A stretch of DNA of 64,000 nt from Halochromatium roseum (lineage in GTDB: Bacteria > Pseudomonadota > Gammaproteobacteria > Chromatiales > Chromatiaceae): assembly GCF_016653315.1 (NCBI RefSeq), contig NZ_NHSH01000044.1, positions 1 to 64,000 of the forward strand, in the 5' to 3' direction. Under the pieces are notes generated by a model, which saw only the letters and a program-made list of their open reading frames with translations, was not told the DNA's origin and searched no databases. Positions within the stretch are counted from its first letter, which is position 1; every line of letters begins with the position of its first letter. This document shows positions 33,397-49,695 of the stretch, piece by piece. The translations under genes and the position numbers were made by a program.

Positions 33397-33418
33397 CCTG
33401 GACGATCACGCCGATGCG

Positions 33419-33616: not shown

Positions 33617-33755
33617 AAGGCGTAACGATATCAGTGATGCCAAACGCCAGCTTGCAATCGGCACAACCTTGATGCTGAGATCGATTGCTTGACTGTGCGA
33701 CATCAAACACACTAGCCCTCATATCGCCGACCACTGAGTCAGTCATTAGGACACC

Positions 33756-34952
33756 ATGACCATCAAACAAGTCATCACCGAGGGCGAGAAGCCAGTCAAG
33801 ATCTGGACTGATGAACTCGACCCGCGCTCGCGCGAGCAACTGGTGAACATCTCCAAGCTACCGTTCATCCATCACCATGTCGCCGCGATGCCGGACGTGC
33901 ATGCTGGCATTGGCGCCACCATCGGCAGCGTCATCGCCACCGATCGCGCCATCATCCCGGCCGCGGTCGGCGTCGATATCGGCTGCGGCATGGCCGCGGC
34001 ACGCACCTCGCTCAGCGCCGAGCAGCTCGACGAGAAGCTGCTGAAGAAGGTCTTCGACCAGATCAGCCGCGATGTCCCCGTCGGACGCAATCAACACAGG
34101 GATGAGCGCGCCCTTGCCGAGGCGGCGCAGCCCTTCGCCGCGCCGCTCGCGATCCTGACCGGGAAACATCCTAAACTACTCAAGGCCTTCGGACGCTTCT
34201 CCAACTGGGTCAATCAGCTCGGCACCCTGGGCGGCGGTAACCATTTCATCGAGGTCTGCCTGGATGAGGCCGGCCAGGTCTGGGTCATGCTGCACTCAGG
34301 CAGCCGGGGCATCGGCAATGCGATGGGCACCTACTTCATCGAGCTGGCCAGGCGCGATATGGAACGCTGGATGATCCAGCTCCCCGACCGCGACCTGGCC
34401 TATCTGCCGGAGGGTACCGAGCATTTCGATGACTATGTGGCGGCGGTCTCTTGGGCGCAGGCCTATGCGCGCGAGAATCGCGATCAGATGATGCGTTTGG
34501 TACTGGCCGCCCTCGCCCGCCATCTACCGGCGTTTACGGTCACCGAGGAGGCGGTCAACTGCCATCACAACTATGTCGAGCGCGAGCATCATTTGGGCGC
34601 CGACGTTTGGGTAACGCGCAAGGGCGCGATCCGCGCGCGTGAGGGCGATCTCGGGATCATCCCCGGCAGCATGGGCGCGCGCAGCTACATCGTGCGCGGC
34701 AAAGGTAACCCGGAGAGCTTCAACTCCTGCGCCCACGGCGCCGGTCGGCGCATGAGCCGCACCGCGGCCGAGAAGCAGTTCACCCCGGCGGACCTGGCTA
34801 AGCAGACCCAAGGCGTCGTCTGCCGCAAGGATAAAGGCGTGCTCGATGAGATCCCGAGCGCCTATAAAGACATTGATCAGGTAATGGCCAACCAGACCGA
34901 TCTGGTCGAGGTGGTGCATACCCTCAAGCAGGTGGTGTGCGTGAAAGGGTGA
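33756..34952 (+). CDS. rtcB: RtcB family RNA ligase
   Basis: 398 residues. RtcB joins 2',3'-cyclic phosphate (or 3'-phosphate) and 5'-OH RNA ends using GTP and Mn2+. Signature positions: MPDVHAGIGATIGSVIATD, VGVDIGCGMAAARTSL with the metal-binding Asp/Cys, LGTLGGGNHFIEV, HSGSRGIG, EAVNCHHNYVERE (metal His), and the guanylylated His in FNSCAHGAGRRMSR. It is about the length of the shorter RtcB paralogues. No rtcA or rtcR nearby; it follows the PLD-helicase by 360 bp on the same strand. Intact. Confidence 0.92.
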   Translation: MTIKQVITEGEKPVKIWTDELDPRSREQLVNISKLPFIHHHVAAMPDVHAGIGATIGSVIATDRAIIPAAVGVDIGCGMAAARTSLSAEQLDEKLLKKVFDQISRDVPVGRNQHRDERALAEAAQPFAAPLAILTGKHPKLLKAFGRFSNWVNQLGTLGGGNHFIEVCLDEAGQVWVMLHSGSRGIGNAMGTYFIELARRDMERWMIQLPDRDLAYLPEGTEHFDDYVAAVSWAQAYARENRDQMMRLVLAALARHLPAFTVTEEAVNCHHNYVEREHHLGADVWVTRKGAIRAREGDLGIIPGSMGARSYIVRGKGNPESFNSCAHGAGRRMSRTAAEKQFTPADLAKQTQGVVCRKDKGVLDEIPSAYKDIDQVMANQTDLVEVVHTLKQVVCVKG

Positions 34953-35042
34953 TTGGCCGGGCCGCTAGTCACTCACAACACACCCAAGAGGATAATACGA
35001 CGCCTTAGCGCCTGGACCTCATGCGACCTCTACCAATCGCGT

Positions 35043-35058
35043 ACAGCGCATACGCTGT
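35043..35058 (-). terminator. Short hairpin after the porin gene
   Basis: ACAGCG-CATA-CGCTGT forms a perfect 6-bp stem 13 bases beyond the porin stop codon (minus strand). There is no U-run, so it would be a weak or factor-dependent terminator, or a 3'-end protecting hairpin. Confidence 0.3.
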
Positions 35059-35070
35059 CCGCCAACAGGC

Positions 35071-36348
35071 TCAAAACTCGGCAACCGCGCGCAGCCCGAA
35101 GATCAGGCCGGTGACGTCGTCGGCACCAGAATAGCTATCCTTCATCCATTGCACGTCGGCACTGATCGCCAACCTGTCGTTGATCGCGAATCGATAGTAG
35201 GTCTCAACGACATCGCTCTGAAAAACATCACTGTTGCCGCCGTGGACATGGCCGTAGGCGATGCCGATCCTATCGCTCTCACGGCCCCACGCCGCGCCCT
35301 TGAAGTCGAAGCCGCCCTCATAGCCGGACTGGTAAGTGCCCTCCCCATCCGTCAGCCCCCAGGCGGCACGAAGAAAGACACCAAAGACGTCGCCGAGCGC
35401 CTGATCAAAGGATAGGAAGAGTCCCGCCAACGGCTCCTGATCGTCCCCAGACGCGCTAGAAAAGTCTTCTGACGTGCCGCTATAAGTGACCCGGTAATGG
35501 CCGTCGCCGAGTCCCGTCCGCAACCGGTATTCGATCTCGCCGGCAGACCAGTGATAGGCTTTGCCATCTTCGTTCTGACCCACCGACATACCGGTACCAC
35601 TGAGGGTCCAGTTGCCTACCTGCCAAACGACAACAGCGCCCCAGTCATAGGCCGGCATATAAAGGTTGCGGGCATTGACGAACGCGGCATTGCTGAACTG
35701 AGTAAATTCGTCGTTGGCGTAGGCGTTGCGGTTGAAGTAAGCGGACGGATCAATAATGCCACCGACGAGTTGGATGCGATTATCCTCGCCGAGGGCAAAG
35801 ATTCGGCTGTACCAGGCTTCTAGCAGGTAGCTGCGACCGCTACCGTTGATGTTCTTGACATCCGCTTCCAGGTCCGCCGCCCAAGACGACAACTCGAACG
35901 GGGAAACATTGTTCAGCCCGTTGCCAATCGCGAAGCCGAACTTCGCGAAAAACTGATCCGCAGGTGTCGGCTCATACGACACTTCCGGCTGTAATACGAC
36001 GGCGCCTCGACAGGCATCATCCGGAGGATTCCCGGCATTTGTCTGCTGGCATTGGTAGACGCCTGCCAACAGGCCGTTGAGCGTGATCTGCTCACTGAGA
36101 TCGAGAGCCTGCGTCGACAACGGCACAACGAAAATAGTCGCCGCCGCCAGCCAGGACAGCGGGCGACGGGCTAGACCCAGTAGGTTTCGTAAATGCCACG
36201 AATGTCCCCCATGCCATGATGCTCGGCCGGCCCTGTTACGAATTCGATGCGCACAACGATCTGCGATCGATGCGGCACTTCGACAGCGCGCATCGCTTTG
36301 TCGTGTCGTGATCGTATCCGGCTTATTCGCAAGGCTAACCTTTTCCAT
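35071..36348 (-). CDS. OprB-like carbohydrate-porin family outer-membrane protein
   Basis: 425 codons. After a signal sequence (LSWLAAATIFVVPLSTQALD) the protein reads as a 16-strand porin of the OprB type: QFFAKFGFAIGNGLN, LEADVKNINGSGRSYLLEAWYSR, QLVGGIIDPSAYFNRNAYANDEFTQF, NLYMPAYDWGAVVVWQVGNW, and a C terminus ending in Phe (ALRAVAEF), which is the usual assembly signal. The only ATG in frame (36348) adds about 60 residues of basic sequence in front of the signal, so the true start is unclear. Last gene of the thiocyanate island and 39 bp after DUF1641; probably the outer-membrane entry for the island's small-anion substrates (inference). Confidence 0.75.
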   Translation of the reverse strand: MEKVSLANKPDTITTRQSDARCRSAASIADRCAHRIRNRAGRASWHGGHSWHLRNLLGLARRPLSWLAAATIFVVPLSTQALDLSEQITLNGLLAGVYQCQQTNAGNPPDDACRGAVVLQPEVSYEPTPADQFFAKFGFAIGNGLNNVSPFELSSWAADLEADVKNINGSGRSYLLEAWYSRIFALGEDNRIQLVGGIIDPSAYFNRNAYANDEFTQFSNAAFVNARNLYMPAYDWGAVVVWQVGNWTLSGTGMSVGQNEDGKAYHWSAGEIEYRLRTGLGDGHYRVTYSGTSEDFSSASGDDQEPLAGLFLSFDQALGDVFGVFLRAAWGLTDGEGTYQSGYEGGFDFKGAAWGRESDRIGIAYGHVHGGNSDVFQSDVVETYYRFAINDRLAISADVQWMKDSYSGADDVTGLIFGLRAVAEF

Positions 36349-36387
36349 GAAGAAGACTCGGCCAACGCGATAACCCTAGCGGGGGCT

Positions 36388-36819
36388 TTAGCTTCCTCGC
36401 CGGTGCATGTCTCGCATGCCTTCGCTAAGGTGAGAAGCAATCAACGAAACCAAGCGTAACCCCTCCTGCACGCCGGGATCGCTGACTAAGCGGAGTAGAC
36501 CTCGAATTCCACCCGGTGCGGGCGCGACAGTTGCCAAGTCTTTGCTCGCTTGCGTGAACGCATTAGATAAGCATATGAGAAATTCCTGGTTTTCGGGATG
36601 GTCCATCTCTCCGAGCAAGTGCACCAACCCCTCATTTCGCGTGAGGCGATCAAGAAGCGTGATTCCTTCGCTAAAAGCCGCCGCGGCACGGCTGACAATA
36701 TCGTCTGATATTGCGTCACGAGCGGCATTGACGAGTGTCGCTAGTTCAGCAAGCTGATGCAAATCATCAGCACTAATGAGTTCGGCCGCAGCCTTGGACG
36801 GTGGGGTCTGATTTGTCAT
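36388..36819 (-). CDS. DUF1641 family protein
   Basis: 143 residues, mostly helical: LAELATLVNAARDAISDDIVSRAAAAFSEGITLLDRLT, LICLSNAFTQASKDLATVAP, and the family's GGIRGLLRLVSDPGVQEGLRL. DUF1641 proteins are found beside SQR-family or FAD oxidoreductases in bacteria and archaea and may be membrane-associated partners of them (family knowledge). GGAGG seven bases before ATG 36819 is a good ribosome site; the gene begins 11 bp after the SQR-like stop. Confidence 0.75.
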   Translation of the reverse strand: MTNQTPPSKAAAELISADDLHQLAELATLVNAARDAISDDIVSRAAAAFSEGITLLDRLTRNEGLVHLLGEMDHPENQEFLICLSNAFTQASKDLATVAPAPGGIRGLLRLVSDPGVQEGLRLVSLIASHLSEGMRDMHRRGS

Positions 36820-36830
36820 CGCGTGCCTCC

Positions 36831-37964
36831 TTATAGTAGTCCGCGTACACTAGCCCAGTACATCTTGTTGTACGACGTCTTAAACCAGTGCATCGGTTTG
36901 TTAGGCTCCTTGAGGTCTGGAGGATTGACGTAGTCAAACATGGCATAAGTCGCACTGTCGTGACCGGTCTCAATGAAGCAGTAGACTTTTCCATCGTATT
37001 CACGAACTGGCGCACCAATCTTGATCTTCGATGCGATATTCTCGGAAACAACCTCGGCCTGAAAATGTGCGGCTGACCCGGTTTTACTAACAGGCAGGTT
37101 TGTCGTGTCCCCTAACACATACACATCATCATATCCGTCCATCGTCAGCTGGTAACGATTAGTCGGTATCCACCCACCCTGACCCAGGCTATTTTTTTCA
37201 ATCGTCTCCATACCACGATGGGGCGGGATAGCAATGAGCATATCATATGCTGCTTCAGTGCCCTCCTCGCTCATGACCACGCTATTTTTAACATCGACCT
37301 CTTTGACGTTGAACAGCGTTTCATACTCAATCCCCATGTTGTCGAAGGCGGGCTTCGCCCACTTTGCGACATTCTCGATGGTATGAATCCGGCCGATTGG
37401 GTAATGATACTTGATCTGAACCTTATCGCGAATTCCTCTCGATTTGAAATAGTCGTGGAGCGAGAAGACGAGCTCTACCGGTGCAATCGGGCACTTATGC
37501 GGCACACCCACAACAATCGCGATCTTGCCGCCCTCGAATCCACGTAGAGCCTTGAACATCTTGACTGCACCAGCCTCGGAATAGAAGGTTTCAGCGCCCT
37601 CAGCTAAACCGGGAATTTCCTTCGGCACGATACGCGATCCAGTAGCGATGACTAAAACATCATAGCCGTAAGATTTTCCGCTGATGGTCTTCACAGTCTG
37701 TTGATCAAGATGAAACTCATCGACCGGATCGACGTGAAAGTCAATACAGGCTTCAAGCAGGCTTTTTTGTTTCCGATACAACTCGTCGGGCATCATCTGT
37801 CCAAATGCCACATACAGAAGTCCAGGTTGATACATGTGCTGATCGGATGCGGAGAGCATCGTGATTCGAACTTTGCGCGAACGTATTTCTCCCGCGAGCC
37901 GACGAGCTAGGTTATTAGCAACGATGGTACCGCCTGTGCCACCACCGACGATCAAGATTCTCAT
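36831..37964 (-). CDS. SQR-family NAD(P)/FAD-dependent oxidoreductase
   Basis: 377 residues from ATG 37964 (RILIVGGGTGGTIVANNLARRL, the FAD-binding GxGxxG). Further: SASDQHMYQPGLLYVAFG, YDVLVIATGSRIVP, VVGVPHKCPIAPVELVFSLHDY with a central Cys near position 160, and VYVLGDTTNLPVSKTGSAAHFQAEVV. This is the sulfide:quinone oxidoreductase superfamily. Cys residues near 90, 160 and 330 could correspond to the redox Cys set, but alignment would be needed. It likely oxidises a sulfur species to the quinone pool, receiving sulfur from, or passing it to, the adjacent TusA and DsrE proteins. C-terminal amphipathic part for membrane contact. Confidence 0.82.
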   Translation of the reverse strand: MRILIVGGGTGGTIVANNLARRLAGEIRSRKVRITMLSASDQHMYQPGLLYVAFGQMMPDELYRKQKSLLEACIDFHVDPVDEFHLDQQTVKTISGKSYGYDVLVIATGSRIVPKEIPGLAEGAETFYSEAGAVKMFKALRGFEGGKIAIVVGVPHKCPIAPVELVFSLHDYFKSRGIRDKVQIKYHYPIGRIHTIENVAKWAKPAFDNMGIEYETLFNVKEVDVKNSVVMSEEGTEAAYDMLIAIPPHRGMETIEKNSLGQGGWIPTNRYQLTMDGYDDVYVLGDTTNLPVSKTGSAAHFQAEVVSENIASKIKIGAPVREYDGKVYCFIETGHDSATYAMFDYVNPPDLKEPNKPMHWFKTSYNKMYWASVRGLL

Positions 37965-38036
37965 GATGTTATCGCCTCCAAAATTAGGGCAACCTTGCAA
38001 ATAGCCTCGAGCGTTCTAGCCTCAGCAACTAACCCA

Positions 38037-38267
38037 CTACTTGGCCTTACGAACCTTGACATGCCAAACACCATCGATCTTTTCGCTACTGATCAAATCG
38101 TGTCCTACCTTGTTGACCCAATCAGGCACATCACCAGCAGACCCTTCATCGGTTGATAAGAGTTCAAGCGTATCCCCGACATTAGCTTGTTTCATGTAAG
38201 TGATCAGCTCCATCAGCGGACCAGGGCAAAATGTATTTCTTGCGTCGATCGTCTTTAGTTCACTCAT
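38037..38267 (-). CDS. TusA-family sulfur carrier
   Basis: 76 residues. IDARNTFCPGPLMELITYMKQ contains the CPxP persulfide motif with the active Cys at position 14, followed by the beta-alpha-beta fold (GDTLELLSTDEGSAGDVPDWVNKVGHDLISSEK). TusA proteins carry a persulfide between sulfur enzymes. In this island it lies between the DsrE-like and SQR-like genes, the arrangement of sulfur-trafficking modules in sulfur oxidisers. It is an oxidative-type TusA by context, since no tRNA-thiolation genes are near. Confidence 0.85.
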   Translation of the reverse strand: MSELKTIDARNTFCPGPLMELITYMKQANVGDTLELLSTDEGSAGDVPDWVNKVGHDLISSEKIDGVWHVKVRKAK

Positions 38268-38312
38268 GCGTCTGATCCTCGTGGATTGGTGTTACAGGCT
38301 TGGCTCGAAGCA

Positions 38313-38705
38313 TTAGAATGTGAAAACCTGGCTGTCGGCAGTGTCGCCTAAAAAGCTCGTTAACCCGGTTGGAGGCCCCAATTCAGGATCGAGATCGTCC
38401 CCCTTGAGCCCCATTAGATCGAGCGCCATGGAGCAAGGCAAGAGCTTCGCACCGCCCATATCCACGGCGAAAGCGAATAACTGCTTAAATGGCGGAACAC
38501 CATGGTTTTTTTCAATGAGAGCTCCGAACTCTCCCTCGGCCGGAGCCTCATTGTTTTGCCCTTTGACGAAGTACCGCAAAGCATTCATCGAGATAAAGAC
38601 CATGACTTCGTCCCCACTAGCCGCGGCCACTGAAGCGATCATAGCCGCCATTTGTAGCTTCTCGCGCGCACCCGAGACGCAGACGATACTCATTTTTTGC
38701 GCCAA
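38313..38705 (-). CDS. DsrE/DsrF-like sulfurtransferase-type protein
   Basis: 130 residues. MSIVCVSGAREKLQMAAMIASVAAASGDEVMVFISMNAL is the DsrE Rossmann-like start, and AKLLPCSMALDLMGLKGDDLDPEL gives the conserved Cys about position 90 that carries sulfur in DsrE family members. Of the DsrE2-like or DsrE/YchN type, since no membrane helix is present. It heads the DsrE-TusA-SQR-DUF1641 group, 120 bp downstream of an ABC permease gene and on the same strand. Confidence 0.8.
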   Translation of the reverse strand: MAQKMSIVCVSGAREKLQMAAMIASVAAASGDEVMVFISMNALRYFVKGQNNEAPAEGEFGALIEKNHGVPPFKQLFAFAVDMGGAKLLPCSMALDLMGLKGDDLDPELGPPTGLTSFLGDTADSQVFTF

Positions 38706-38825
38706 GACTCATTCTCCAAAGTTAGGTAAGTGCGTTGCCATCTGGTAAGTCGCGGATAGAATCGACCAAGCCACTGCTGTTACACGACTGCCACAGGCCG
38801 GCCGATCTTGAATTTATGATCTGGA

Positions 38826-39659
38826 CTATCCTCGGTGCCAGCTATAGCGTTTGATCAGCAACACAATGGTGCTATCCAAGACAAAACCCACTGCGCCTAT
38901 AACCACGATGAGCGCCATAAGATTGGAATACTCAAGGCTTTCCCGAGAATCTTGAATGGCATATCCGAAGCCCGAGGTAACCCCTAGAAACTCAGCTGGT
39001 ATGATGACGATCCAGGCAACACCGAGCGCCAGACGGATGCCGGTCAGCACGTCGAAGGTAATAGCCGGGAGGATGATTTTAGTCAGCATCTGCCAAGGCT
39101 TGGCGCCGAGATTGCGTGCAACCTTAAACCAGCTAGGGTCGATCTTCGCTAGCCCCGCAGCGGTAGAAAAAGCCACAGGCCATACCGCCGCCACGGCAAT
39201 CAGAAAAATGATTGCCTCTTCCCAACCGGCGAATACCACAACCGCAATTGGCTCCCAAGACAGCGGGCTGATCATGCGCAACAACTGAAACGGGGCATTG
39301 GTCAATTGCTTGAACCAAAGGCTGCGGCCCATCATGATGCCAATTGGCACTCCAATCACGATGGCGAAGAACATTCCCATACCTAGGCGAAAGCCGCTGC
39401 TGCCGATCGCATCCGGAATGGTTCCGTTCCGCCACAGTTCAGGCAATGCCTGGAGGGCCTCGTTAGGTGCGAATGCGCTGAACTGCGACACAGAGGGGTT
39501 TAACGTGACTAGGAAGATCGCTAGCCACCATAGCGCTACAAGCGCTGCCAAACCCACCACGATGTGTAGAGCCTTGGTGCCTGACGATTGGAATACATCG
39601 CACAAATTGGCGTATATACCCCCGGAAACGCGAGGCATCGCAATATCTTGGCTAGTCAT
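38826..39659 (-). CDS. ABC transporter permease 2 (NrtB/SsuC type)
   Basis: 277 residues from ATG 39659, which has GGAG seven bases upstream; a TTG 18 bases earlier is less likely. Six membrane helices and the BPD-transport EAA loop at VARNLGAKPWQMLTKIILPAITFDVLTGIRLALGVAWIVIIPAEF. Closely similar to the upstream permease, so the two probably arose by duplication and may form a heterodimer. Family importers take up nitrate, taurine, sulfonates or cyanate. Confidence 0.88.
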   Translation of the reverse strand: MTSQDIAMPRVSGGIYANLCDVFQSSGTKALHIVVGLAALVALWWLAIFLVTLNPSVSQFSAFAPNEALQALPELWRNGTIPDAIGSSGFRLGMGMFFAIVIGVPIGIMMGRSLWFKQLTNAPFQLLRMISPLSWEPIAVVVFAGWEEAIIFLIAVAAVWPVAFSTAAGLAKIDPSWFKVARNLGAKPWQMLTKIILPAITFDVLTGIRLALGVAWIVIIPAEFLGVTSGFGYAIQDSRESLEYSNLMALIVVIGAVGFVLDSTIVLLIKRYSWHRG

Positions 39660-39737
39660 TAGGTTCTCCGGCTGCAATCAGACTCATGGAAAAAGAGTCC
39701 CTGCATTGACTGCTTCGTCTATATTGGCCTATTTCCC

Positions 39738-40559
39738 TCATGCGTGCCCCCGCTGCCAGCTGTAGCGATTGATCAATATAACGATGATGCTGTCGAGGAC
39801 GTAACCAATCACGCCGATTGTCAGCACAAGTGCCGTCAAGTGGTTGTAGCTCAGTGTCTCGCGAGCATCTTCGATGGCATAGCCCAAACCAGAAGTCACG
39901 CCCAAGTACTCAGCAGGAACGAGTACGATCCAAGCGACGCCCAAGGCCAATCGGATACCGGAGAAGACGTCGAAAGCAATCGCGGGCATGATGACTCGAG
40001 TCAGCATCTGGAGCGGAGTCGCACCCAAGTTACGCGCAACCTTGAACCAGCTCGGATCAACCTTGGCGAGCCCCGCCGCCGTGGAAAACATCACCGGCCA
40101 AACCGATGCGATGGCGATCAGGAAAATGATCGACCCGTTCCAGGTCGCAAACACGAGCACAGCCAAAGGCATCCAAGCGAGCGGACTGACCATACGCAGG
40201 AATTGGAATGCCGCGTTGCTGTACTCCTGGAACCACTTCACTCTACCCATGAGTATGCCGATCGGCACGCCAATGCAGATCGCGATCAGTAAGCCCATAC
40301 CAAGTCGGTAGCCGCTGGCGGCCGCAGCCGCCTGAATTTTTCCGGCTCCGAATAACTCAGGAAATGCCTGGAGGGTTGGAATCAGCCCAAAGGCGGCAAA
40401 GCTCTGCGTCGTCGGGTTTGCCTGCAGCCAAAGGCCGGCAGCAAACCATAGTGCCGCCAAGATGGCGACACCAGCCACGCCCCATGCGAACCGCCGCAAT
40501 GCCGGGTGTTCGATGAAACGGGACACGACGCCACCACGGAAGGCGACTTCTTGAGTCAT
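39738..40559 (-). CDS. ABC transporter permease 1 (NrtB/SsuC type)
   Basis: 273 residues with the same layout as its neighbour: N-terminal helix AWGVAGVAILAALWFAAGLWL, EAA motif at VARNLGATPLQMLTRVIMPAIAFDVFSGIRLALGVAWIVLVPAEYLGVTSGLGYAI. Its ATG (40559) overlaps the stop of the substrate-binding gene by four bases, so the pair is translationally coupled. Two permeases next to one ATPase and one binding protein suggest a heterodimeric channel. Confidence 0.88.
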   Translation of the reverse strand: MTQEVAFRGGVVSRFIEHPALRRFAWGVAGVAILAALWFAAGLWLQANPTTQSFAAFGLIPTLQAFPELFGAGKIQAAAAASGYRLGMGLLIAICIGVPIGILMGRVKWFQEYSNAAFQFLRMVSPLAWMPLAVLVFATWNGSIIFLIAIASVWPVMFSTAAGLAKVDPSWFKVARNLGATPLQMLTRVIMPAIAFDVFSGIRLALGVAWIVLVPAEYLGVTSGLGYAIEDARETLSYNHLTALVLTIGVIGYVLDSIIVILINRYSWQRGHA

Positions 40560-41989
40560 AGCTCGATCACCTCTTTACGAACAAACGGATCACCTGTTTG
40601 TGGAACGCTGAGGTCCGCCTTCCAGCCCGGATTCGCATTCAAAGCCTTCTTGATGTAGTCGTACTGCACCAGATCCTCAGCCACGAAATCAGGCGAGAGG
40701 CCTTCCAGGAAGGCAGTTTCACCACCCACCAGCGTCGTATTCATCTCACTGACCACTGCTTCAGTGGCGCTTGGGAAAGGCCAACCTTGGAAGTTGATAC
40801 GACTTTGCTGCCATTCCGGGTGCTGGATCGCAGGTGGCTGAGCGTAATCGGCCGGCGAGTAGAACATCATGGCTCGCTCCACTACCTCCGATGGGAAAGG
40901 CAAGTATTTCTTGCCATCTCGAGACAGCATCTCTGCCGTTGCTTTACGGTTGGCGCTGATATGAAGCTGAGCTTTAACGATGGCATTGTGTACGCCTTGC
41001 GCCCATGCTGCGCGGTCGGGATCCATCGCATCGTCCTCATGCATGCAGACCACACAACAGGGGTGCCCCCTCCAAACATCGCCGGTGAATCGCAGGACTT
41101 CCCCGCCGGCTCTAAGCTCACCAAGCGCATTGAATGGTTCCGCAACGCAGTAGCCGTCGATCTGGCCAGCGGCAAGGGCTGGCGGCATATCCGGCGGATT
41201 GAGCACCAACAGGTTGACCTCATTGGGAGCTAGGGCTGCGTTCTGTGGACGGATTACCGGCGTAAGACCGGCATCGCGCATAATCCGTTGGGAAATGATG
41301 TTATGGATGGAATACCAGTAGGGGACCGCGAACTGCTTACCACCCAAGTCCTTTGGCTCCTTGATCTCGCTCTTCTTGCTAACGACGATCGCCGACCCGT
41401 TGGTATGATTCCATGCGGTAATCTTTACCGGGAAATTGTTGTTGTAGCGCATGTAGATCGGCACCGGGATGAGGAGGTGCGTCAAATTGAAACGCTGCGC
41501 AGAAAAGGCTTCCACAAGAGGCGACCAACCGCGAATCAATGTTGGTGGCTCAGACTCTAAACCCTCGTCTTTGAAGAAGCCCATTTCATGCGCGACCAGC
41601 AGGGTGGCAGCATCTGTAATTGGGATGTATCCGATTTTTACTACCGGGTCGAAAGGCTTGATGTATTTCGTTCCATCGGCTTCTTTCTGCTGTGCCAGCG
41701 CAGCGCTCGATGACATCATGGCGCCCAGTCCGCCTAGCCCTGCGAATGCGGCAAACTTGAGCATGTCGCGGCGACTTACGCCGGTTCCCAGCACCGAACT
41801 AAAGAGCGGATCATAGTCGATAGCAAGACTAGGATCGGCCTTGCCATCTGCAATATCCGGGTCCTGAGGCATTACAGTCCGAAGCCGCTGATCAACTGAC
41901 CCGGCTTTACCGCAGGTACCGCAGGAACAGCCGTCGATGTGCACGAGCGCATGTGTTTGACTCTGCGATCTATCGTCAGATTTTTTCAT
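40556..41989 (-). CDS. NrtA/CmpA-like substrate-binding protein with Tat signal
   Basis: 477 residues. An unusual 70-residue N-terminal region contains a Cys cluster, DGCSCGTCGKAG (Cys 21, 23, 26), before the twin-arginine signal VSRRDMLKFAAFAGLGGLG (Arg 73-74) and AALAQ cleavage site. The mature part is a type II periplasmic binding fold of the NMT1/NrtA class: VKIGYIPITDAATLLVAHEMGFFKDEGL, PLVEAFSAQRFNLTHLLIPVPIYM, DLGGKQFAVPYWYSIHNI, QIDGYCVAEPFNALG. Tat export fits a protein that folds, possibly with a cofactor, before export. Substrate likely thiocyanate or cyanate from its position. Confidence 0.85.
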   Translation of the reverse strand: MKKSDDRSQSQTHALVHIDGCSCGTCGKAGSVDQRLRTVMPQDPDIADGKADPSLAIDYDPLFSSVLGTGVSRRDMLKFAAFAGLGGLGAMMSSSAALAQQKEADGTKYIKPFDPVVKIGYIPITDAATLLVAHEMGFFKDEGLESEPPTLIRGWSPLVEAFSAQRFNLTHLLIPVPIYMRYNNNFPVKITAWNHTNGSAIVVSKKSEIKEPKDLGGKQFAVPYWYSIHNIISQRIMRDAGLTPVIRPQNAALAPNEVNLLVLNPPDMPPALAAGQIDGYCVAEPFNALGELRAGGEVLRFTGDVWRGHPCCVVCMHEDDAMDPDRAAWAQGVHNAIVKAQLHISANRKATAEMLSRDGKKYLPFPSEVVERAMMFYSPADYAQPPAIQHPEWQQSRINFQGWPFPSATEAVVSEMNTTLVGGETAFLEGLSPDFVAEDLVQYDYIKKALNANPGWKADLSVPQTGDPFVRKEVIEL

Positions 41990-42077
41990 GATGGATATCC
42001 TCTGGTTAAGGGGCCGATGATCCGAAAGGTATCTGCGTGATTGAGCAGACGGGCGCCGTCACGGGTGAACAATACTG

Positions 42078-42869
42078 TTAATCTACGAGTGAAACCGCTT
42101 CTGGCTTTTGGTAGTTGGCCGCCTGTTGGAAGTCATCCATGAGCTTGGCGCGCAGCGTCTGGACACGTGGATCAGTTCGGTCGCGCGGATCGGGTAAGTC
42201 CACATCCAATTCACGTACGATGTTGCCAGGCGATCCAGCCATGATGACCGCGCGGTCGGCCATGATGACTGCCTCATCGATGTCGTGGGTGACAAGGATG
42301 ATGTTGAATCCTAAGCGTTTGGCGATAGCGCGAACGTCATGCTGCAGCGAGGATCGGGTGAATGCGTCGAGAGCCGAAAAAGGCTCGTCCAACAGGAGTA
42401 GCTCGGGCTCCATTACCAGAGAGCGAGCTAGCGCAACGCGCTGCTGTTGACCACCGGAGAGATCTTGCACATTTGACTGAGCGAAGTCTTGCAGTTCGAC
42501 CAGTTGGATTGCCTCATCAACTCGGCTATCAATCGTTGACTTATCCCAATTGCCAAACGTGAGCCCCACCCCTACGTTTTGCTTTACTGTCATCCAGGGA
42601 AAAAGATGGGGAGCTTGAAACATCATGACCCATTTTGGCGATGGGCCTTGGATAGGAGTACCGTCGAGTTTGATGCTACCCTCGGACGCTTTGAGCAATC
42701 CTGCCACAATATGTAGTAGAGTCGACTTACCACACCCGGATCGGCCAATGATGGCGAGGGCCTCGCCTTGCGGCGACTCTAGATCGACCCGATTGAAGGT
42801 CACCGTGCTACGTGAGCCATAACGATGAGTCAGTCCTTCGATCTTAATATTTGTTCCGCGTATTGCCAT
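42078..42869 (-). CDS. ABC transporter ATPase (NrtD/SsuB/TauB type)
   Basis: 263 residues. Walker A IIGRSGCGKSTLL, Q-loop MVMMFQAPHLFPWMTV, signature LSGGQQQRVALARSL, Walker B LLLDEPFSALD, and switch His VTHDIDEAVIMADRAVIM. It energises the importer encoded downstream (binding protein, two permeases). Start ATG 42869; gene order on the minus strand is ATPase, then binding protein, then permeases. The 124 bp upstream separate it from the P15K-like gene. Confidence 0.92.
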   Translation of the reverse strand: MAIRGTNIKIEGLTHRYGSRSTVTFNRVDLESPQGEALAIIGRSGCGKSTLLHIVAGLLKASEGSIKLDGTPIQGPSPKWVMMFQAPHLFPWMTVKQNVGVGLTFGNWDKSTIDSRVDEAIQLVELQDFAQSNVQDLSGGQQQRVALARSLVMEPELLLLDEPFSALDAFTRSSLQHDVRAIAKRLGFNIILVTHDIDEAVIMADRAVIMAGSPGNIVRELDVDLPDPRDRTDPRVQTLRAKLMDDFQQAANYQKPEAVSLVD

Positions 42870-42993
42870 CTATTAGCTCCTCTATTCGTTTTCCCGCCGT
42901 CAATGGTTTAGGGATGATCACAGGGGCACTTCTGAAAAACCTCAGAAGTAGCGGCCGGTGAAGTGATTCACCGACCCACTCGACGCTAAAGCC

Positions 42994-43419
42994 TCAGGCG
43001 CTGTGTAGTCGTTCTCTCACCACCTCGATGCGGTGGGTCAGGTCTTCTTCGTCCAGCATTCCACGCGCAATCATTGAGTGTGCAAGTGCGAGAAGTTGGC
43101 GTTCCGGGAAAGGCACATCTTCATAAATCGTCGCGGCCAACTCGTCTTCCTCAGCACGCCTCTCCAACGAGGGCAGGGCACATGATCCTGGCACGACCTC
43201 ATCGTACGACTTCACACACGAATCGCCCGCCAACATGTCACAGGTGGCCTCCAAGTCGATCTGCCACGGCGGCTCTGGGTTTGTGACACCATATTGAATG
43301 GCCAGATCCTCCCATACCCGCCCCCGCATCTTGATCGTCTCGAGAAGAGGAATAGGCTTAAAATCAGGCTCTTGCCAGCCAGTATGGGTCATGTACTCCT
43401 GTTGTTTTGGCTCAACCAT
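42994..43419 (-). CDS. P15K-like thiocyanate hydrolase/nitrile hydratase maturation protein
   Basis: 141 residues from ATG 43419, which overlaps the end of scnC by eight bases. Content: QEPDFKPIPLLETIKMRGRVWEDLAIQYGVTNPEPPWQIDLEATCDML ... VKSYDEVVPGSCALPSLERRAEEDELAATIYEDVPFPERQLLALAHSMIARG. This is the NHase beta-like activator type: the equivalent P15K gene follows scnC in Thiobacillus thioparus and supports cobalt insertion into the gamma subunit (established). Role here inferred from position and similarity. Confidence 0.78.
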   Translation of the reverse strand: MVEPKQQEYMTHTGWQEPDFKPIPLLETIKMRGRVWEDLAIQYGVTNPEPPWQIDLEATCDMLAGDSCVKSYDEVVPGSCALPSLERRAEEDELAATIYEDVPFPERQLLALAHSMIARGMLDEEDLTHRIEVVRERLHSA

Positions 43420-44161
43420 GATGGGCACTCCCCGCATGATGATGGTGGTGGTCGTCGCCGTGATGATGATGAACCGGATTAATTGCTTTACGCACGCGGC
43501 GTTTTGCGTTATTCGTGATGCCCGGCTTAGGGACCGCCACACCGATGAGACAATCGCGTGTGACAATCTCCGCTAATTGCTCCTCGGTCCAGCCATCCGT
43601 CCCTTCGGGACGCGTCGGCATAACGATGTAACGTGTCTTCTGATTAGAATCCGCAACCCGAATCTCTACATCTGGATCGAGCTGCAGGCCGAACTCGGAA
43701 AGTACTTGGCGAGGCCAGCGCACTAGGCGGCGGCGATAATTCGGAGTACGGTACCATTCGGGTGACTGGCCCAAGATTGGCCGCGGGTAGCAGGAGCAGA
43801 GGGTACAGACAACGACGTGCTTAAGTTTTGGTGTATCAGCAAGAACGCGTAGATTACAGTAGTCGCTTGGGGTACCAAACTGCGTCGGCGGACTGGTCAC
43901 CCAATTCACACCAACTGCCTTGCTCGCTTCGACCCCGTCTTCAATGCACAACTCTTTGTACTCGGGATCGAGCCATGCCTTGGCAACTAAACGCGCGGCT
44001 GGCAATGGACCCAACGTATGTACATATTCTTTCCACACCCGATGATCTTCAGTCGAGAATAGACCTTTCTCGATGGCAAGCTCGCGAACTGCTATTTCGA
44101 GAATCTCGAAATCGCTAACCTCATCCACCATCGGCGCAGGCTTGTGATCATGTTCAGACAT
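43412..44161 (-). CDS. scnC: Thiocyanate hydrolase gamma subunit
   Basis: 249 residues. NHase alpha-like fold with the metal claw VVVCTLCSCYPRP (Cys119, Cys122, Cys124). Thr after the first Cys is the form of Co(III) enzymes. With the alpha and beta subunits it catalyses SCN- + 2 H2O to COS, NH3 and OH-. The core ends near residue 225 (RRVRKAINPV); the last 23 residues are a His/Asp-rich tail (HHHHGDDHHHHH and following) that is not part of the usual subunit, about 10 His in all, and could store or donate cobalt. The tail may also explain why P15K overlaps here. Confidence 0.92.
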   Translation of the reverse strand: MSEHDHKPAPMVDEVSDFEILEIAVRELAIEKGLFSTEDHRVWKEYVHTLGPLPAARLVAKAWLDPEYKELCIEDGVEASKAVGVNWVTSPPTQFGTPSDYCNLRVLADTPKLKHVVVCTLCSCYPRPILGQSPEWYRTPNYRRRLVRWPRQVLSEFGLQLDPDVEIRVADSNQKTRYIVMPTRPEGTDGWTEEQLAEIVTRDCLIGVAVPKPGITNNAKRRVRKAINPVHHHHGDDHHHHHAGSAHHG

Positions 44162-44197
44162 CTGTGATTTCCTCTAACAAGTAAAGTCCGCGCCTAA

Positions 44198-44566
44198 TCA
44201 GGCCGATTGGAGATAGGTCTCGGGGAACTCCGTCTCCAAAGAGTCGTTCGAATAGGCCTCGCTATACTCTGGCCACAGATCCCGTTGCTTGAACACGATG
44301 CTGTAGAACCACACTGGATTATCGGTGTTATCCCAAGCCTCATCTTCAGCGGGAGGACTTTCGTAGACTAGACGCACGACCGTACCGACCGCCCCCCTTG
44401 TATATGCCATGGTGCGAGAGTAGAAGATATCCGGCAGATCACGAATCTTCACTTGATCGCCCACCTTAAATTTTGCTGGCCCAGCTTTGCCTGCAAAGCA
44501 TTGAGGATCGCCAATGCCACTAGCGATCTTGGCATGGTGGGTTCTATCGTGCTGTGCTTTGCTCAT
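44198..44566 (-). CDS. scnA: Thiocyanate hydrolase alpha subunit
   Basis: 122 residues. Resembles the C-terminal half of nitrile hydratase beta: PAKFKVGDQVKIRDLPDIFYSRTMAYTRGAVGTVVRLVYESPPAED, NPVWFYSIVFKQRDLWPEY. The family's SH3-like barrel contacts the gamma subunit. It starts inside scnB (23 bp overlap) and is followed by scnC after 36 bp; the order scnB-scnA-scnC is the one known from Thiobacillus thioparus. Confidence 0.9.
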   Translation of the reverse strand: MSKAQHDRTHHAKIASGIGDPQCFAGKAGPAKFKVGDQVKIRDLPDIFYSRTMAYTRGAVGTVVRLVYESPPAEDEAWDNTDNPVWFYSIVFKQRDLWPEYSEAYSNDSLETEFPETYLQSA

Positions 44567-44990
44567 TACGGCTTTTCACCTCATCTATCTTGTTAACCAA
44601 CTCAGTGAGCGTGACGTATTGTTTATCGACCAGAATCCGCGCGGCCGTAATCAGCCAGCGCCCGTAATACGGCAGGCCTAGGTAGGCCGTTTGCCCAACA
44701 TCAACGTTTTGGCGCCGCCGGCGTTCCTCGGCATTCCACACGCCGCGCCAGGCCAGACACTCGCAAGTCGCAAATGTGTTAAGCTCCCAGACCTCTTCCT
44801 CTTTTTCCTCGTATTCGATGGGAACATCGTATTCTCCGCCAACATCGTGCACTGGCCTGGTATAGGCGCGATAGAGTTCATGGTTGATCTCGTCAGGTGC
44901 AGGTGCATGCGTCTGTTTGTGCAGCGCAGGCTGAAGATGGCCGACGCGTTGAAGATGCCTTAGCACCTCATCTCTAGTAGACGATGACAT
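44544..44990 (-). CDS. scnB: Thiocyanate hydrolase beta subunit
   Basis: 148 residues, corresponding to the N-terminal half of nitrile hydratase beta: VHDVGGEYDVPIEYEEKEEEVWELNTFATCECLAWRGVWNAEERRR, LGLPYYGRWLITAARILVDKQYVTLTELVNKIDE. First structural subunit gene; a GGAGACTC ribosome site precedes ATG 44990. The promoter is expected in the 582-bp upstream gap. The subunits are about 10 points below the local core block in GC by eye, like the rest of the island. Confidence 0.9.
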   Translation of the reverse strand: MSSSTRDEVLRHLQRVGHLQPALHKQTHAPAPDEINHELYRAYTRPVHDVGGEYDVPIEYEEKEEEVWELNTFATCECLAWRGVWNAEERRRRQNVDVGQTAYLGLPYYGRWLITAARILVDKQYVTLTELVNKIDEVKSRNEQSTAR

Positions 44991-45572
44991 TGCATTGAGT
45001 CTCCTCTGGTTGATTACGAAAATGGCTATATCCGTAACGGACTAGATCTAAGCCACGAACCGCAGACCACGGGGCTTCACGTTGGTTACTCGACGGGGCG
45101 AAGGTAATACCCTCGCTCTGAATAACATCGCTGGTGTAGCGCTTAACACCCTAGGCGGATCTAACTATGAGACATCAGCGTAATAATTCCAAAGACGAAA
45201 ATCCGATAGCCTCCAGAGGCTTTAACTATGCATTCTAGTCAACATTTGGTGGTCAATGCAGATTCCAGCAGCGAACGGAGCTGCGGTTCACAGGCAATAG
45301 CGCGGACATGCTGGCCGCCGCATCTTTATTAGAGAAGTAGAGTATTATTAAAAGCAGAAATAGTCAGCGTGTTCAGCCGACGCTGATCAGCCGACGCTTT
45401 TTACACGATTCAGTTAAACTGGCACGCGAAGGATTCTTGCCTGGAAAACCACAGCCAAGGCTATTCAGCAAATAAGGCTCAAGACGCGGATTAATACTAG
45501 GCAATAGACGGCGGGACGAAATTAAATGGTAGGCCTAGCTGTAGGTGGCGATAGCTTGGCTAATTCGCTACA
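44991..45572. promoter_or_regulatory. 582-bp regulatory gap between cynS and scnB
   Basis: No coding frame is convincing on either strand. On the minus strand a possible promoter for scnB reads -35 TTGACC (45251-45256), 18 bases, -10 TGCATA (45227-45232). An inverted repeat AGCCTC-CA-GAGGCT lies just after it (45208-45221). A 12-bp direct repeat TCAGCCGACGCT occurs at 45373-45384 and 45387-45398, with an overlapping hairpin TCAGCG/CGCTGA (45364-45386); this could be an activator site or the terminator of cynS. I looked for a cobalamin or other cobalt riboswitch and found none. Confidence 0.35.
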
Positions 45573-46013
45573 CTACCAAGATTTGTAGGGTAGAAACTTA
45601 CCGCTGATGGTGACATGAACACGATCGCCCTGCGGGTCTTTCTCACGGTCGACCTTTATCTTAAAATCAATAGCACTCATGATTCCGTCGCCAAACTCCT
45701 CATTAATCATCTCTTTAATTGTCTCGCCATAGACATTAATCATCTCGTACCAGCGATAAATCAACGGATCGGTAGGAATAACCTTATCCCAAGACTTGTT
45801 TGGAAAAGCTTGCAGCGCGTCTGCCACCTCACTAGTGAGGCCGAGAATTTGCGCAACTGCTGTTGCACTTGTCTCCTGCAAATGGTTCATGCCAAGACAG
45901 GCAGAACAGGTAAACTCTGGAGACAAGCCTGCAGCCTCTGCAATCGCGCTCCAAGCCAAGCCCCTTTGATGCTTGGCTTCGAGAATGGCTTCCTTCATCT
46001 CTGCTTTATTCAT
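45573..46013 (-). CDS. cynS: Cyanate hydratase (cyanase)
   Basis: 146 residues. Cyanase turns cyanate and bicarbonate into ammonia and CO2. N-terminal HTH-like part (LAWSAIAEAAGLSPEFTCSACLGMNHLQ) and the C-terminal active-site domain PLIYRWYEMINVYGETIKEMINEEFGDGIMSAIDFKIKV with the catalytic Arg, Glu and Ser, ending in GKFLPYKSW. Cyanate is the other nitrogen product formed in thiocyanate metabolism or can be taken up by the ABC importer, so it completes use of both anions. It follows the cbiM-like gene by 94 bp. Confidence 0.93.
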   Translation of the reverse strand: MNKAEMKEAILEAKHQRGLAWSAIAEAAGLSPEFTCSACLGMNHLQETSATAVAQILGLTSEVADALQAFPNKSWDKVIPTDPLIYRWYEMINVYGETIKEMINEEFGDGIMSAIDFKIKVDREKDPQGDRVHVTISGKFLPYKSW

Positions 46014-46107
46014 GTCTCAGCTTCTTTATCCTAGATTCGTTAATGCATAAAGCTGCCGACCCACACCTCTTGGCGCAGAATGCCGGCAGCTGCCAGACGT
46101 CCCGAGT

Positions 46108-46800
46108 TTAGGCCGAGGCTAAGTGCAGGCGAGTATTGAACACCTTGCCCCTTACTGCATGCCCTTCGGAGTCGGTTGTCGCCTTGACACCGGCCAGGAT
46201 CGCGAGATCCAAAGCTGGCTCAATGATGATGACTGCTAGGTATGCCGTCGCAAAGGTGGCAATCTGAACAAGGCTCTCAGCCCCGAAGCCTTGGCCGTAC
46301 ACCACCCAAAACCCCACCCAGGAGACTACTGCACCTTGAAAGGCTGCGGATATCTTGAAAGCCTGCGCGTAGCTCACATCCTTGTAGGCAGTGTCAGCTG
46401 GAATAACCCTACGTGCGATAGCGCCGGCCAAGAACAGTGGCACCAGCAATGTAGTAACATTCATGCCATACTGCGGCAGGTCCGTTGGGGCGAAAAACAA
46501 GCCCTGAGCGAGCAAACCAGCGGCGAGACCGATGGCTGCAGCTCCGGCACCGAACATTAGAAAAAGGGTTGCGCCAAGAATCAGGTGTACCTCAGACACC
46601 CCGACTGGGGCGTGCGGCAAAACCTGAAACATTCCCAAGACCAATGCCGTAGTAATTGAGCTGCGAATGACGAGCGCAGTCATTCCGACTTCTTTAATCG
46701 TGTCTAGCGAAAGCTTGGCGGCATAGCCAATAGCTCCCGCTGCGGTTAGGTAACTGAGCGCGGTTTTTGCGCCTTCTACAACGCCCGGTTCAATATGCAT
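46108..46800 (-). CDS. CbiM-like cobalt ECF-type permease component
   Basis: 230 residues with six or seven membrane helices. It begins M-H-I-E-P-G, and the N-terminal Met-His-Ile is the metal-ligand signature of CbiM/NikM (the free N terminus folds into the metal site). VLPHAPVGVSEVHLILGATLFLMFG matches the family's second metal-binding helix (GTSGHLLG-like), with the conserved His. No CbiN, CbiQ or CbiO partner is encoded here, so it acts alone or borrows an ATPase module. In context it supplies Co for thiocyanate hydrolase. First gene on the minus strand after the divergent regulator. Confidence 0.72.
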   Translation of the reverse strand: MHIEPGVVEGAKTALSYLTAAGAIGYAAKLSLDTIKEVGMTALVIRSSITTALVLGMFQVLPHAPVGVSEVHLILGATLFLMFGAGAAAIGLAAGLLAQGLFFAPTDLPQYGMNVTTLLVPLFLAGAIARRVIPADTAYKDVSYAQAFKISAAFQGAVVSWVGFWVVYGQGFGAESLVQIATFATAYLAVIIIEPALDLAILAGVKATTDSEGHAVRGKVFNTRLHLASA

Positions 46801-47001
46801 GTCATCGCCCTGAGTTAAGAATATTAGAAATTACCTGGCAACCAACTGCCCATGGGTCCCAGCTAACGGTGCGGGGCCTAATGAAACGGCTTGCCGCTTG
46901 ATAGAGTAGGCGCGTCCCATATGCCACCGCTGAATCGATTCTCTGTCAGGCGCGCCTATTATTCCAAGAACAAATTCCGATTGAGACTATAGGCTAACGT
47001 T
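46801..47001. promoter_or_regulatory. Divergent promoter region cbiM-like / LysR regulator
   Basis: The 201 bp between the start codons of the cbiM-like gene and the LysR-type regulator. This is the classical location of a LysR operator controlling both directions. AT-rich at both ends (for example around 46815-46835 and 46950-46990). I could not single out a T-N11-A motif with confidence among several candidates. Confidence 0.45.
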
Positions 47002-47934
47002 ATGGAAAGAAATCCTGTCTTTCCCAGATCGATTCAGTACTTGATGGCGGTTGCCGAACATCAGAGCTTCACCCGGGCAGCGGAAGCGTTGTACGTCTCG
47101 CAGCCGACCCTCTCCCAGCAGATTAGGCAGTTGGAGGATTTGCTGGACACTCAGCTGCTCGATCGCTCCGGCCGCGTGGTACGGCTCACGGCTGCCGGCG
47201 AGGTGTATCTACAGTATGCGTACCGAGCACTTAGGGAGCTGGAAGCAGGAACTCGGGCCATTTACGACTTGCAGGATCTCAGTCGCGGCTCTCTTCGGCT
47301 TGGCATGATGCCCGTTACCGATTACCTCACAACGCCGCTGCTGCATGAGTTCATCGCCCGCTACCCGGGCATCAACGTGAGCACCACGGAAATGTCTCAG
47401 GATGACATCGCTGCCGCGCTGACGGAGGATCGCATCGATGTGGGCGTTTCCTACAACTGTGTGCTTGCCAACGACAAGCACCCCGACGACATCGACACCC
47501 AAACCCTGTGCGTCGAGAGGCTCAGCCTCGCCGTCGGCTGCGACCACGACTTGGCCCAAGAAATCGGACCCTTGAACAGCATCGAAGTGCTGGAGCGAGA
47601 GCCGATGGTGATGCTCAATAACAACTATGCATTGCGTCGTCACATCGATAGTTTCTGCTTCGAAAACAGCATCAAACTCACGATCGCAATGGAAGCAACC
47701 TCCGTTAGCCTGATTACCGAAGTTGTCCGCCTTGGGCGTCTCGCCACCATCCTGCCCGATGTCATCTGCTCCGCTCAGCCTAGGCTGCACCAGATACCCA
47801 TGACGCCTGAACTGCCGCGACATGGTATTAGCCTGTTCTTCCGCAAAAGCGCCTACAAAAGTCCCGCATGCGTGGCATTTGGGGAGCTGGCATCAGAGCT
47901 GACATCGACCCGCTGCAGAATTAAGCAGGGTTAA
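47002..47934 (+). CDS. LysR-type regulator, CynR-like
   Basis: 310 residues. N-terminal winged HTH: SIQYLMAVAEHQSFTRAAEALYVSQPTLSQQIRQLEDLLDTQLLDRSGRVVRLTAAG, typical of the CynR/CbbR subgroup, followed by the substrate-binding domain (SLRLGMMPVTDYLTTPLLHEFIARYPGINV, PMVMLNNNYALRRHIDSF, GRLATILPD). Divergent from the thiocyanate/cyanate genes, so it probably activates them in response to cyanate or a related anion, as CynR does for cynTSX in E. coli. GC and codon use lie between the island and the chromosome. Confidence 0.85.
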   Translation: MERNPVFPRSIQYLMAVAEHQSFTRAAEALYVSQPTLSQQIRQLEDLLDTQLLDRSGRVVRLTAAGEVYLQYAYRALRELEAGTRAIYDLQDLSRGSLRLGMMPVTDYLTTPLLHEFIARYPGINVSTTEMSQDDIAAALTEDRIDVGVSYNCVLANDKHPDDIDTQTLCVERLSLAVGCDHDLAQEIGPLNSIEVLEREPMVMLNNNYALRRHIDSFCFENSIKLTIAMEATSVSLITEVVRLGRLATILPDVICSAQPRLHQIPMTPELPRHGISLFFRKSAYKSPACVAFGELASELTSTRCRIKQG

Positions 47935-47981
47935 TAGCTTAAACCCGCACTCACTTCATCTTTAGCGCGTCCAGTCCAGCA

Positions 47982-48086
47982 TATTGTCCAGTTAACAATT
48001 ATCCGGACAGCCTCATTTTTGCAACCAGCTGATTTGGTTATGATATTAAGAATTTGCTAATCCGCATGGTAAATGGCGGGACAATA
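47982..48086. mobile_element. MITE copy 2 (inverted)
   Basis: Exact reverse complement of 23232-23336 (105 of 105 bases by direct reading), bounded by TA. It lies between the LysR gene and glcF, interrupting no gene. Together the copies mark the ends of a 24.9-kb interval that holds the interrupted defence genes and the thiocyanate island. Ends TTGTCC/GGACAA. Confidence 0.85.
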
Positions 48087-48305
48087 TATAGCGACTGAAA
48101 GGAGATCGTAGCTATAGGAGCAGGCTATCAACCAAATTGAAATTTGATCTTGGACAAGGCGCGCTCCCGAAGATAAATAAACGGGCATATCCAATCGGTT
48201 TGCCAAGTCGCAGGTGTTTTGCGCCTTGAGGCGTCGTCACCACGGCCTGCGACGCCTTCAAATTCGACAGGCAGCATCCATGGAAATTAGGCCTGGGTAC
48301 TTGAA
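48087..48305. other. Leader of the glcF-like gene
   Basis: 219 bases with no convincing gene. The short frames on the minus strand have neither a ribosome site nor a recognisable product. It contains two copies of a CCTTGAGGCGTCGTCA / CCTGCGACGCCTTCAA pattern around 48218-48260 that may form an imperfect hairpin. Confidence 0.35.
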
Positions 48306-49604: not shown

Positions 49605-49695
49605 CCTAGCTGCGATCCAGACCTCCCCCGCACAGCGCAATCACTTCGGGCGCTGGCGATGGGGGCCTTGTCGAGTCCACCTCGAGACTCAGTGA

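Follow-up and report, generated by a model that had tools for sequence, protein, structure and literature searches.

A predicted thiocyanate-utilisation cluster in Halochromatium roseum, a candidate CynR box and an orphan glcF

What do the genes at positions 35071–47934 of a Halochromatium roseum contig do together, how far does their functional unit reach, and where would the sulfur that they handle go? We analysed a 64,000-nucleotide stretch of that genome (hereafter, the window), for which a preliminary description had proposed a complete-looking thiocyanate and cyanate utilisation island at these positions. The list of open reading frames (ORFs) and family scans place an intact thiocyanate hydrolase (scn) cluster there, and all the genes named in that description are intact ORFs. 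We consider it likely that the cluster is a horizontally acquired thiocyanate-utilisation operon of the carbonyl sulfide (COS) pathway type, controlled by CynR, in a purple sulfur bacterium. The gene block lies where it had been placed, but the functional cluster probably extends to the end of an orphan glcF gene at 49604. Likewise, the genes are intact, but at the sulfur end the block cannot be called 'complete-looking', as no β-type carbonic anhydrase (β-CA) or COS hydrolase was found genome-wide.

Gene content, relatives and origin of the cluster

The core of the cluster encodes three separate subunits in the order B-A-C, namely scnB (44544–44990), scnA (44198–44566) and scnC (43412–44161), which lie on the minus strand with the rest of the block. 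All three products match the Thiobacillus thioparus thiocyanate hydrolase structure 2dd4 near full length (β subunit to 2dd4_B, E = 1.8e-74; α to 2dd4_A, E = 5e-58; γ to 2dd4_C, E = 3.5e-147), and ScnC scores 393.4 bits against TIGR03887, above the cut-off of 291.45. For comparison, a profile scan of genome contigs provided the best 80 of 350 confirmed relatives; together with the window these make 81 loci, and counts out of 81 include the window and loci on truncated contigs. The cysteines of the metal motif CTLCSCY are kept in 81 of 81. ScnABC is predicted to be a thiocyanate hydrolase that would convert SCN- to COS and NH3. Its cobalt content and cysteine oxidation are predictions of the same kind, and the enzyme functions proposed across the cluster rest on homology.

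Read from 46800 down to 35071, the minus-strand order is cbiM-like, cynS, scnB, scnA, scnC, P15K-like, ABC ATPase, substrate-binding protein, permease 1, permease 2, dsrE, tusA, SQR-like, DUF1641-like and OprB porin. The divergent cynR lies on the plus strand, in agreement with the earlier picture of a one-stranded block facing its regulator. Across the 81 loci, scnBA and scnC occur in all, the P15K gene in 76, a LysR-type regulator in 73, the substrate-binding protein in 72, the ATPase in 70, a permease in 64, SQR and dsrE in 62 each, tusA in 61, the DUF1641-like gene in 60, cynS in 54, a methyltransferase in 41, glcF in 38, phzF in 28, cbtA in 27 and cbiM in 24. That up to 80 other loci retain the same genes excludes chance, and the counts for LysR, SQR, dsrE, tusA and cynS bear out the expectation, raised with the preliminary description, that neighbouring genes would accompany scn in relatives. 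Four loci (L013, L027, L036 and L044) also carry a second ScnB/ScnA-like pair and a thiamine-diphosphate-enzyme-like gene, the latter named by eye.

Next to scnC lies a gene for a P15K-like thiocyanate hydrolase activator (42994–43437, with the start set at the ATG at 43437; the longest ORF begins at 43566). The protein has no Pfam or NCBIfam match over cut-off, and its earlier naming is supported by position and by profile comparison with hhalign, in which the P15K family scored 93.7 against ScnB, 87.4 against the ScnA set, and 0.2 and 0.1 against two unrelated families. The cyanase gene cynS (45573–46013) exceeds the cut-offs of both NF002773 (202 bits) and TIGR00673 (152 bits). Between cynS and scnB is an AT-rich gap of 582 bp (44991–45572) with no long ORF, a place that holds a methyltransferase gene in many relatives. 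A decayed methyltransferase there had no convincing tblastn match; the matches at E of about 1e-10 came from an ORF of locus L076 that reads cyanase out of frame in its first part, for which reason a supposed cyanase–methyltransferase fusion in L076 was withdrawn. The C-terminal tail of ScnC (43412–43480) is extended and His-rich in the window and both Thiocapsa loci (9–11 His) and similar in locus L075; other loci have fewer His, most still ending in His. A role of this tail in cobalt handling is possible.

For import, the cluster encodes an ABC system of NitT/TauT type, comprising an ATPase (42078–42869; PF00005, with ntrCD as the best NCBIfam model, under its cut-off), a substrate-binding protein (40556–41989; PF13379, NMT1_2) and permeases 1 (39738–40559) and 2 (38826–39677; both PF00528); the binding protein and the permeases exceed their Pfam cut-offs. 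By eye, the N terminus of the binding protein is cysteine-rich (CSCGTCGK) and is followed by a twin-arginine-like signal. An OprB-family outer-membrane porin, a putative entry point for thiocyanate, is encoded at 35071–36348 (PF04966, 61 bits; cut-off, 22.9). It is the least conserved member of the block: 5 of the 80 other loci have a homologue, which in one case is 23% identical. Relatives have porins from other families close to scn, as seen in the three that were scanned. The CbiM-like cobalt permease (46108–46800) is over the cut-off of PF01891 (67 bits) and under the NCBIfam CbiM cut-offs; it starts with Met-His, and His2, His63 and His72 are kept in 24 of 24 sequences. Three permease families recur for cobalt at scn loci: CbiM in 24, CbtA in 27, and HupE/UreJ, Pfam-confirmed in L014, where it occupies the cbiM slot, with look-alike genes in the corresponding position of L024 and L025. 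Judged by these predicted functions, cobalt supply is a recurrent role at scn loci, filled by differing families.

At the sulfur end, a DsrE-like sulfurtransferase (38313–38705; PF13686 and PF02635) and a TusA-like sulfur carrier (38037–38267; PF01206, 72 bits), both over Pfam cut-offs, keep Cys91 in 62 of 62 and Cys14 in 61 of 61 sequences, respectively. The adjoining SQR-like flavoprotein (36831–37964; Pyr_redox_2; the longest ORF begins at 38000) resembles type III SQR; it scores 317 bits against SQR_III_seleno, a model of the selenoprotein subtype with a cut-off of 525, and its two active-site-type cysteines, invariant in 60 of 60 sequences, align with cysteines in human SQOR. A small helical protein (36388–36819) is a putative quinone-coupling partner of SQR. 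Its earlier assignment to DUF1641 is supported by relatives, of which 11 of 54 aligned members match PF07849 at E ≤ 0.01 (best, 2.3e-8), but the window protein itself stays under the Pfam cut-off (17 versus 21 bits). AlphaFold predicts an all-helical structure (predicted local distance difference test score, 79; predicted template modelling score, 0.49), for which no PDB fold match was found at E ≤ 0.001. According to part of the text of PMC8808070, DUF1641/ForE mediates menaquinone use by Bacillus subtilis formate dehydrogenase. In 60 loci the sequence runs on for 8.5 kb or more downstream of scnC. Of these, 56 have an SQR gene and the remaining 4 a different gene of the DsrE family, so that each locus has exactly one of the two. 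One member of this substitute cluster, L023, was confirmed with Pfam.

These families suggest a route that agrees with the pathway first proposed for the island (import, cobalt supply, SCN- to COS and NH3, and cyanate to NH3 and CO2), which by families and neighbourhood is the best supported. Thiocyanate would enter through the porin and then the ABC importer, CbiM would provide cobalt, and the P15K-like activator would help to place it in ScnC. Cyanase would clear the cyanate that accompanies thiocyanate. The SQR-like flavoprotein would oxidise sulfide arising from COS to the persulfide level, with the DUF1641 protein as its probable link to quinone, and TusA and DsrE would then receive the sulfur.

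Such a layout has precedents. In the portion of PMC5328954 consulted, T. thioparus DSM 505 (L005) has the published order cobalt transporter, cynS, scnBAC, hypothetical (P15K), four NitT/TauT ABC genes, DsrE/F, TusA, SQR and hypothetical, and Tv. thiocyanodenitrificans a similar one; a part of PMC5458468, following Kantor et al. 2015, describes the cluster as a conserved operon. The island is thus a further member of a described type. The point that had made it seem noteworthy, cobalt supply and sulfur genes in one block, is correct but was already published for T. thioparus. CynR, GlcF and PhzF genes also adjoin the scn cluster of that strain. By contrast, DSM 505 has a methyltransferase near cynS, which the window lacks, whereas the window has an OprB porin beside the DUF1641-like gene, a longer ScnC His tail, a genome without detected COS hydrolase and a host that encodes reaction-centre proteins. 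Thiocapsa sp. KS1 (L002) and Thiocapsa roseopersicina DSM 217 (L003) share the order from CbiM to the DUF1641-like gene and the absence of a methyltransferase; they differ in their flanks and, for DSM 217, in genes between cynR and cbiM. None of the matches listed had a title dealing with thiocyanate hydrolase from purple sulfur bacteria or Thiocapsa. The alternation of SQR with another DsrE-family gene, the candidate CynR box and the proposed link to an orphan glcF are additions that our literature searches did not show.

The host assembly (88 contigs, 5.17 Mb) encodes a reaction-centre L/M pair and is therefore very probably that of a purple sulfur bacterium. As the preliminary description had it, the island is AT-richer than its flanks, with a GC content of 53.1% at 36388–46800 versus 63.4%. 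ScnC reaches its cut-off in 18 of 210 genomes of the host's family group and, among the 8 listed for the genus, in the window's genome only; the flanking rtcB occurs in 0 of 80 other scn loci. Because of the GC contrast, this scarcity and the rtcB result, we infer that horizontal acquisition is likely. Among the best 80 of 350, a set from which the window's own genome and very close ones may be missing, the closest named copies of ScnC are those of Thiocapsa sp. KS1 (96% identity), whose genus grouping differs from that of the host, and T. roseopersicina DSM 217 (95%). No direct or inverted repeats of at least 20 bases were found in 33400–51000 and no tRNA in the window; integrases were not searched for. 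Rfam at the gathering threshold gave no cobalamin riboswitch and no other structured RNA, and sigma-70 and terminator patterns were no commoner than in shuffles. Outside the cluster, 23001–24000 is a further AT-rich kilobase (GC, 49.5%).

CynR and its candidate box

The divergent regulator (47002–47934, plus strand) scores 349.6 bits against the CynR equivalog NF008416 (cut-off, 277), which sharpens its earlier description as LysR/CynR-like; 73 of 81 loci have a member of its cluster, and two further members that were scanned (L005 and L038) are also CynR. Cyanate is the inducer of E. coli CynR. Here the inducer could be cyanate or thiocyanate. In E. coli, too, a CynR-family regulator is divergent from a cyanase-containing operon (cynR-cynTSX), but that operon has the carbonic anhydrase cynT and the transporter cynX, neither of which is in the window cluster.

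A palindromic box with the core AGTCTTGGAC lies upstream of cynR and recurs upstream of scnB, cbiM and the orphan glcF. Gibbs sampling of 54 sequences from upstream of the LysR gene yielded a palindromic motif of 11.7 bits per sequence, mostly at a fixed 27–28 bases from the LysR start codon, versus 7.6–8.0 in three shuffles; these preserved only single-base composition and were sampled with fewer restarts and rounds than the unshuffled set. The scoring matrix was built from 35 training sites at a fixed offset upstream of cynR, taken from 54 non-redundant of 65 sequences; training excluded the window, both Thiocapsa loci and any sequence lacking the core letters. Applied to the 127,968 positions of the window, it ranked first a site between cynR and cbiM (TTTGTTCTTGGAATAAT; 46958–46974, minus strand) and third a site upstream of the orphan glcF (TTTGATCTTGGACAAGG; 48143–48159, plus strand). 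The second-best score, 14.1, falls inside permease 2 upstream of dsrE (38870–38886, minus strand) and may be chance. These three are the only window matches scoring at least 11, all within 35001–50700, compared with a mean of 0.43 and a maximum of 2 in 60 runs of a Markov model of the stretch. A strict pattern had three matches in the 5.17 Mb of the host, two of them here and the third within a gene that its position and sequence mark as murG-like; the reversed control of the pattern had 0 matches.

Across loci, a box scoring at least 11 was found upstream of scnB in 65 of 79 cases, LysR in 60 of 71, cbiM in 17 of 24 and glcF in 19 of 36, compared with 10 of 229 controls, one of the ten coming from L014 with its HupE in the cbiM slot (upstream regions of 350 bases for scnB and glcF, about 330 for controls). 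An alginate-export-type porin cluster had it in 5 of 9, cynS in 5 of 53, dsrE in 3 of 62, phzF in 0 of 24 and cbtA in 0 of 27. The training sites come from the stretch that separates the LysR gene from its divergent neighbour, which makes the LysR counts, and some of the cbiM and scnB counts, circular. This does not apply to the glcF sites or to second sites before scnB where other genes intervene. A second box stands shortly before scnB in 18 loci, mostly Thiobacillus-like. The glcF sites are thus an independent test of the box, and Thiocapsa KS1 has one scoring 14.4 before its glcF. Position and co-occurrence suggest that CynR would bind the box both between cynR and cbiM and upstream of glcF.

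The orphan GlcF

The orphan glcF (48306–49604, plus strand) encodes a GlcF paralogue with two 4Fe-4S and two CCG domains (NF008434, 523 bits; cut-off, 333). No glcD or glcE lies beside it, and its contig has no GlcD-model match. A separate glc set on host contig C55 comprises a GlcF over cut-off, a GlcD at 553 bits (cut-off, 568) and a partial GlcE-like match. Of 8 other scn genomes searched, 7 similarly have one GlcF that scores better and another resembling that of the window; in the eighth, a metagenome-assembled genome of 2.2 Mb, the window-like type is the only one. In a tree of 40 rows, which left out L135, the weaker homologues L146–L149 (no motif found) and seven duplicates, scn-linked GlcFs fall into two fully supported clades (20 and 13 rows), apart from 7 canonical rows. 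Two independent recruitments were considered, as midpoint rooting puts the canonical copies between the clades, but a single clade was not rejected (approximately unbiased test, P = 0.202). All 16 iron–sulfur/CCG cysteines are kept in 40 of 40 rows.

We propose from the box upstream of glcF that GlcF is part of the response; what it would do, as an electron carrier or a disulfide-type reductase for sulfur relay, is a guess. Generalized, the proposal is that a CynR-family regulator with its own box runs a thiocyanate regulon in proteobacterial sulfur oxidisers including phototrophs, with the orphan GlcF as a dedicated and hitherto unrecognised component, for instance a disulfide or persulfide electron carrier acting with SQR, TusA and DsrE. 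In this full form we hold it tentatively and rather doubt it. There is a real chance, although we would not call it probable, that the orphan glcF is a passenger, kept by co-transfer or old synteny, and that the boxes before it are chance or serve something else. The absence of the box from 17 of 36 glcF upstream regions speaks for such a passenger, and the Fisher value for glcF versus controls (1.8e-12) is not a true probability because the loci are related. A PhzF-family isomerase gene (49696–50670 in the window) likewise recurs near scn clusters, in 28 of 81 loci, with no box in any of 24 upstream regions, and was left out as a regulon member. Against a passenger, the box stands upstream of glcF across tandem, convergent and rearranged layouts, two of only three strict-pattern matches in the genome are at this cluster, and all 33 scn-linked GlcFs of the alignment retain the 16 cysteines. 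Among the matches listed, no title links thiocyanate with GlcF, glycolate oxidase or CynR, although Kantor et al. 2015 may hold such a link; the consulted portion of PMC5328954 mentions neither LysR, CynR nor glycolate.

Fate of COS and weight of the evidence

The preliminary description had noted no COS hydrolase in the window, and none of the β-CA/COS hydrolase type was found in the whole genome either. PF00484, the family of both, had 0 matches in the host genome (the COS hydrolase protein itself was not used as a query), and a Thiocapsa β-CA as query gave a best E of 0.18. The step from COS to sulfide is thus without an assigned enzyme, and use of thiocyanate sulfur would depend on a step with no known enzyme here. 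Besides this gap and the glcF regions without a box, several points weigh against a CynR-controlled thiocyanate operon. That the binding protein of the importer takes thiocyanate is a prediction; there is no CbiQ beside CbiM, the genome's only CbiQ match being on another contig (C51; CbiN and CbiO were not searched). No box precedes scnB in the window (best score, 5.4), so the operon there may depend on the cbiM promoter, and none that is strong precedes cynR in Thiocapsa KS1 or T. roseopersicina DSM 217. The box has no counterpart in the E. coli cynR-cynT intergenic region (score, 2.0), the same matrix scores 15.2 inside E. coli lacA, so that high scores also arise by chance, and a weaker match of 10.8 lies upstream of the host's separate glcD.

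An ammonia supply from thiocyanate can be predicted with fair certainty. It is quite conceivable, if short of probable, that the cluster does nothing more than scavenge nitrogen, with SCN- hydrolysed for ammonia, COS lost as gas and the sulfur genes guarding against sulfide from slow COS hydrolysis. The PF00484 result favours such scavenging, the same search having found the T. thioparus COS hydrolase (384 bits to 3vqj). Both Thiocapsa genomes have a related β-CA that is nearer to ordinary carbonic anhydrase, and an α-type carbonic anhydrase is present in the host genome. In a part of PMC11171427, thiocyanate and cyanate are suggested as ammonium sources for Ca. Thiodiazotropha, both enzymes being moderately transcribed; in a part of PMC6172326, scn mRNA but not COS hydrolase mRNA was seen in thiocyanate-fed fuel cells. 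On the other side, every one of the 60 loci that are long enough has an SQR gene or its DsrE-family substitute. Furthermore, Thiohalophilus thiocyanatoxydans, by a title cited in the consulted part of PMC5328954 an obligate chemolithoautotroph with thiocyanate hydrolase, has one plain β-CA and no COS hydrolase-like one; lack of this hydrolase therefore does not prove lack of sulfur use. That the enzyme is instead a cobalt nitrile hydratase of the same superfamily (Pfam NHase alpha and beta), in an island serving organic nitriles, is highly improbable, as ScnC is over the thiocyanate hydrolase cut-off and under that of the nitrile hydratase model (200 versus 249.85 bits) and scores 492 bits to 2dd4_C versus 181 to the best nitrile hydratase, the α and β subunits are separate as in 2dd4, and no amidase is among 20 window proteins scanned with Pfam.

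As a thiocyanate-utilisation operon, the island repeats a published gene order, and its value as a discovery is modest. The lack of a detected β-type COS hydrolase in the genome poses a direct question on the fate of COS, an atmospheric trace gas, and the proposed box together with the orphan glcF makes the extent of a thiocyanate regulon testable. A dedicated GlcF, if the proposal is true, would let clusters without a known COS hydrolase use thiocyanate sulfur. Thiocyanate is an industrial pollutant, and bacteria that have photosynthetic reaction centres appear able to use it.

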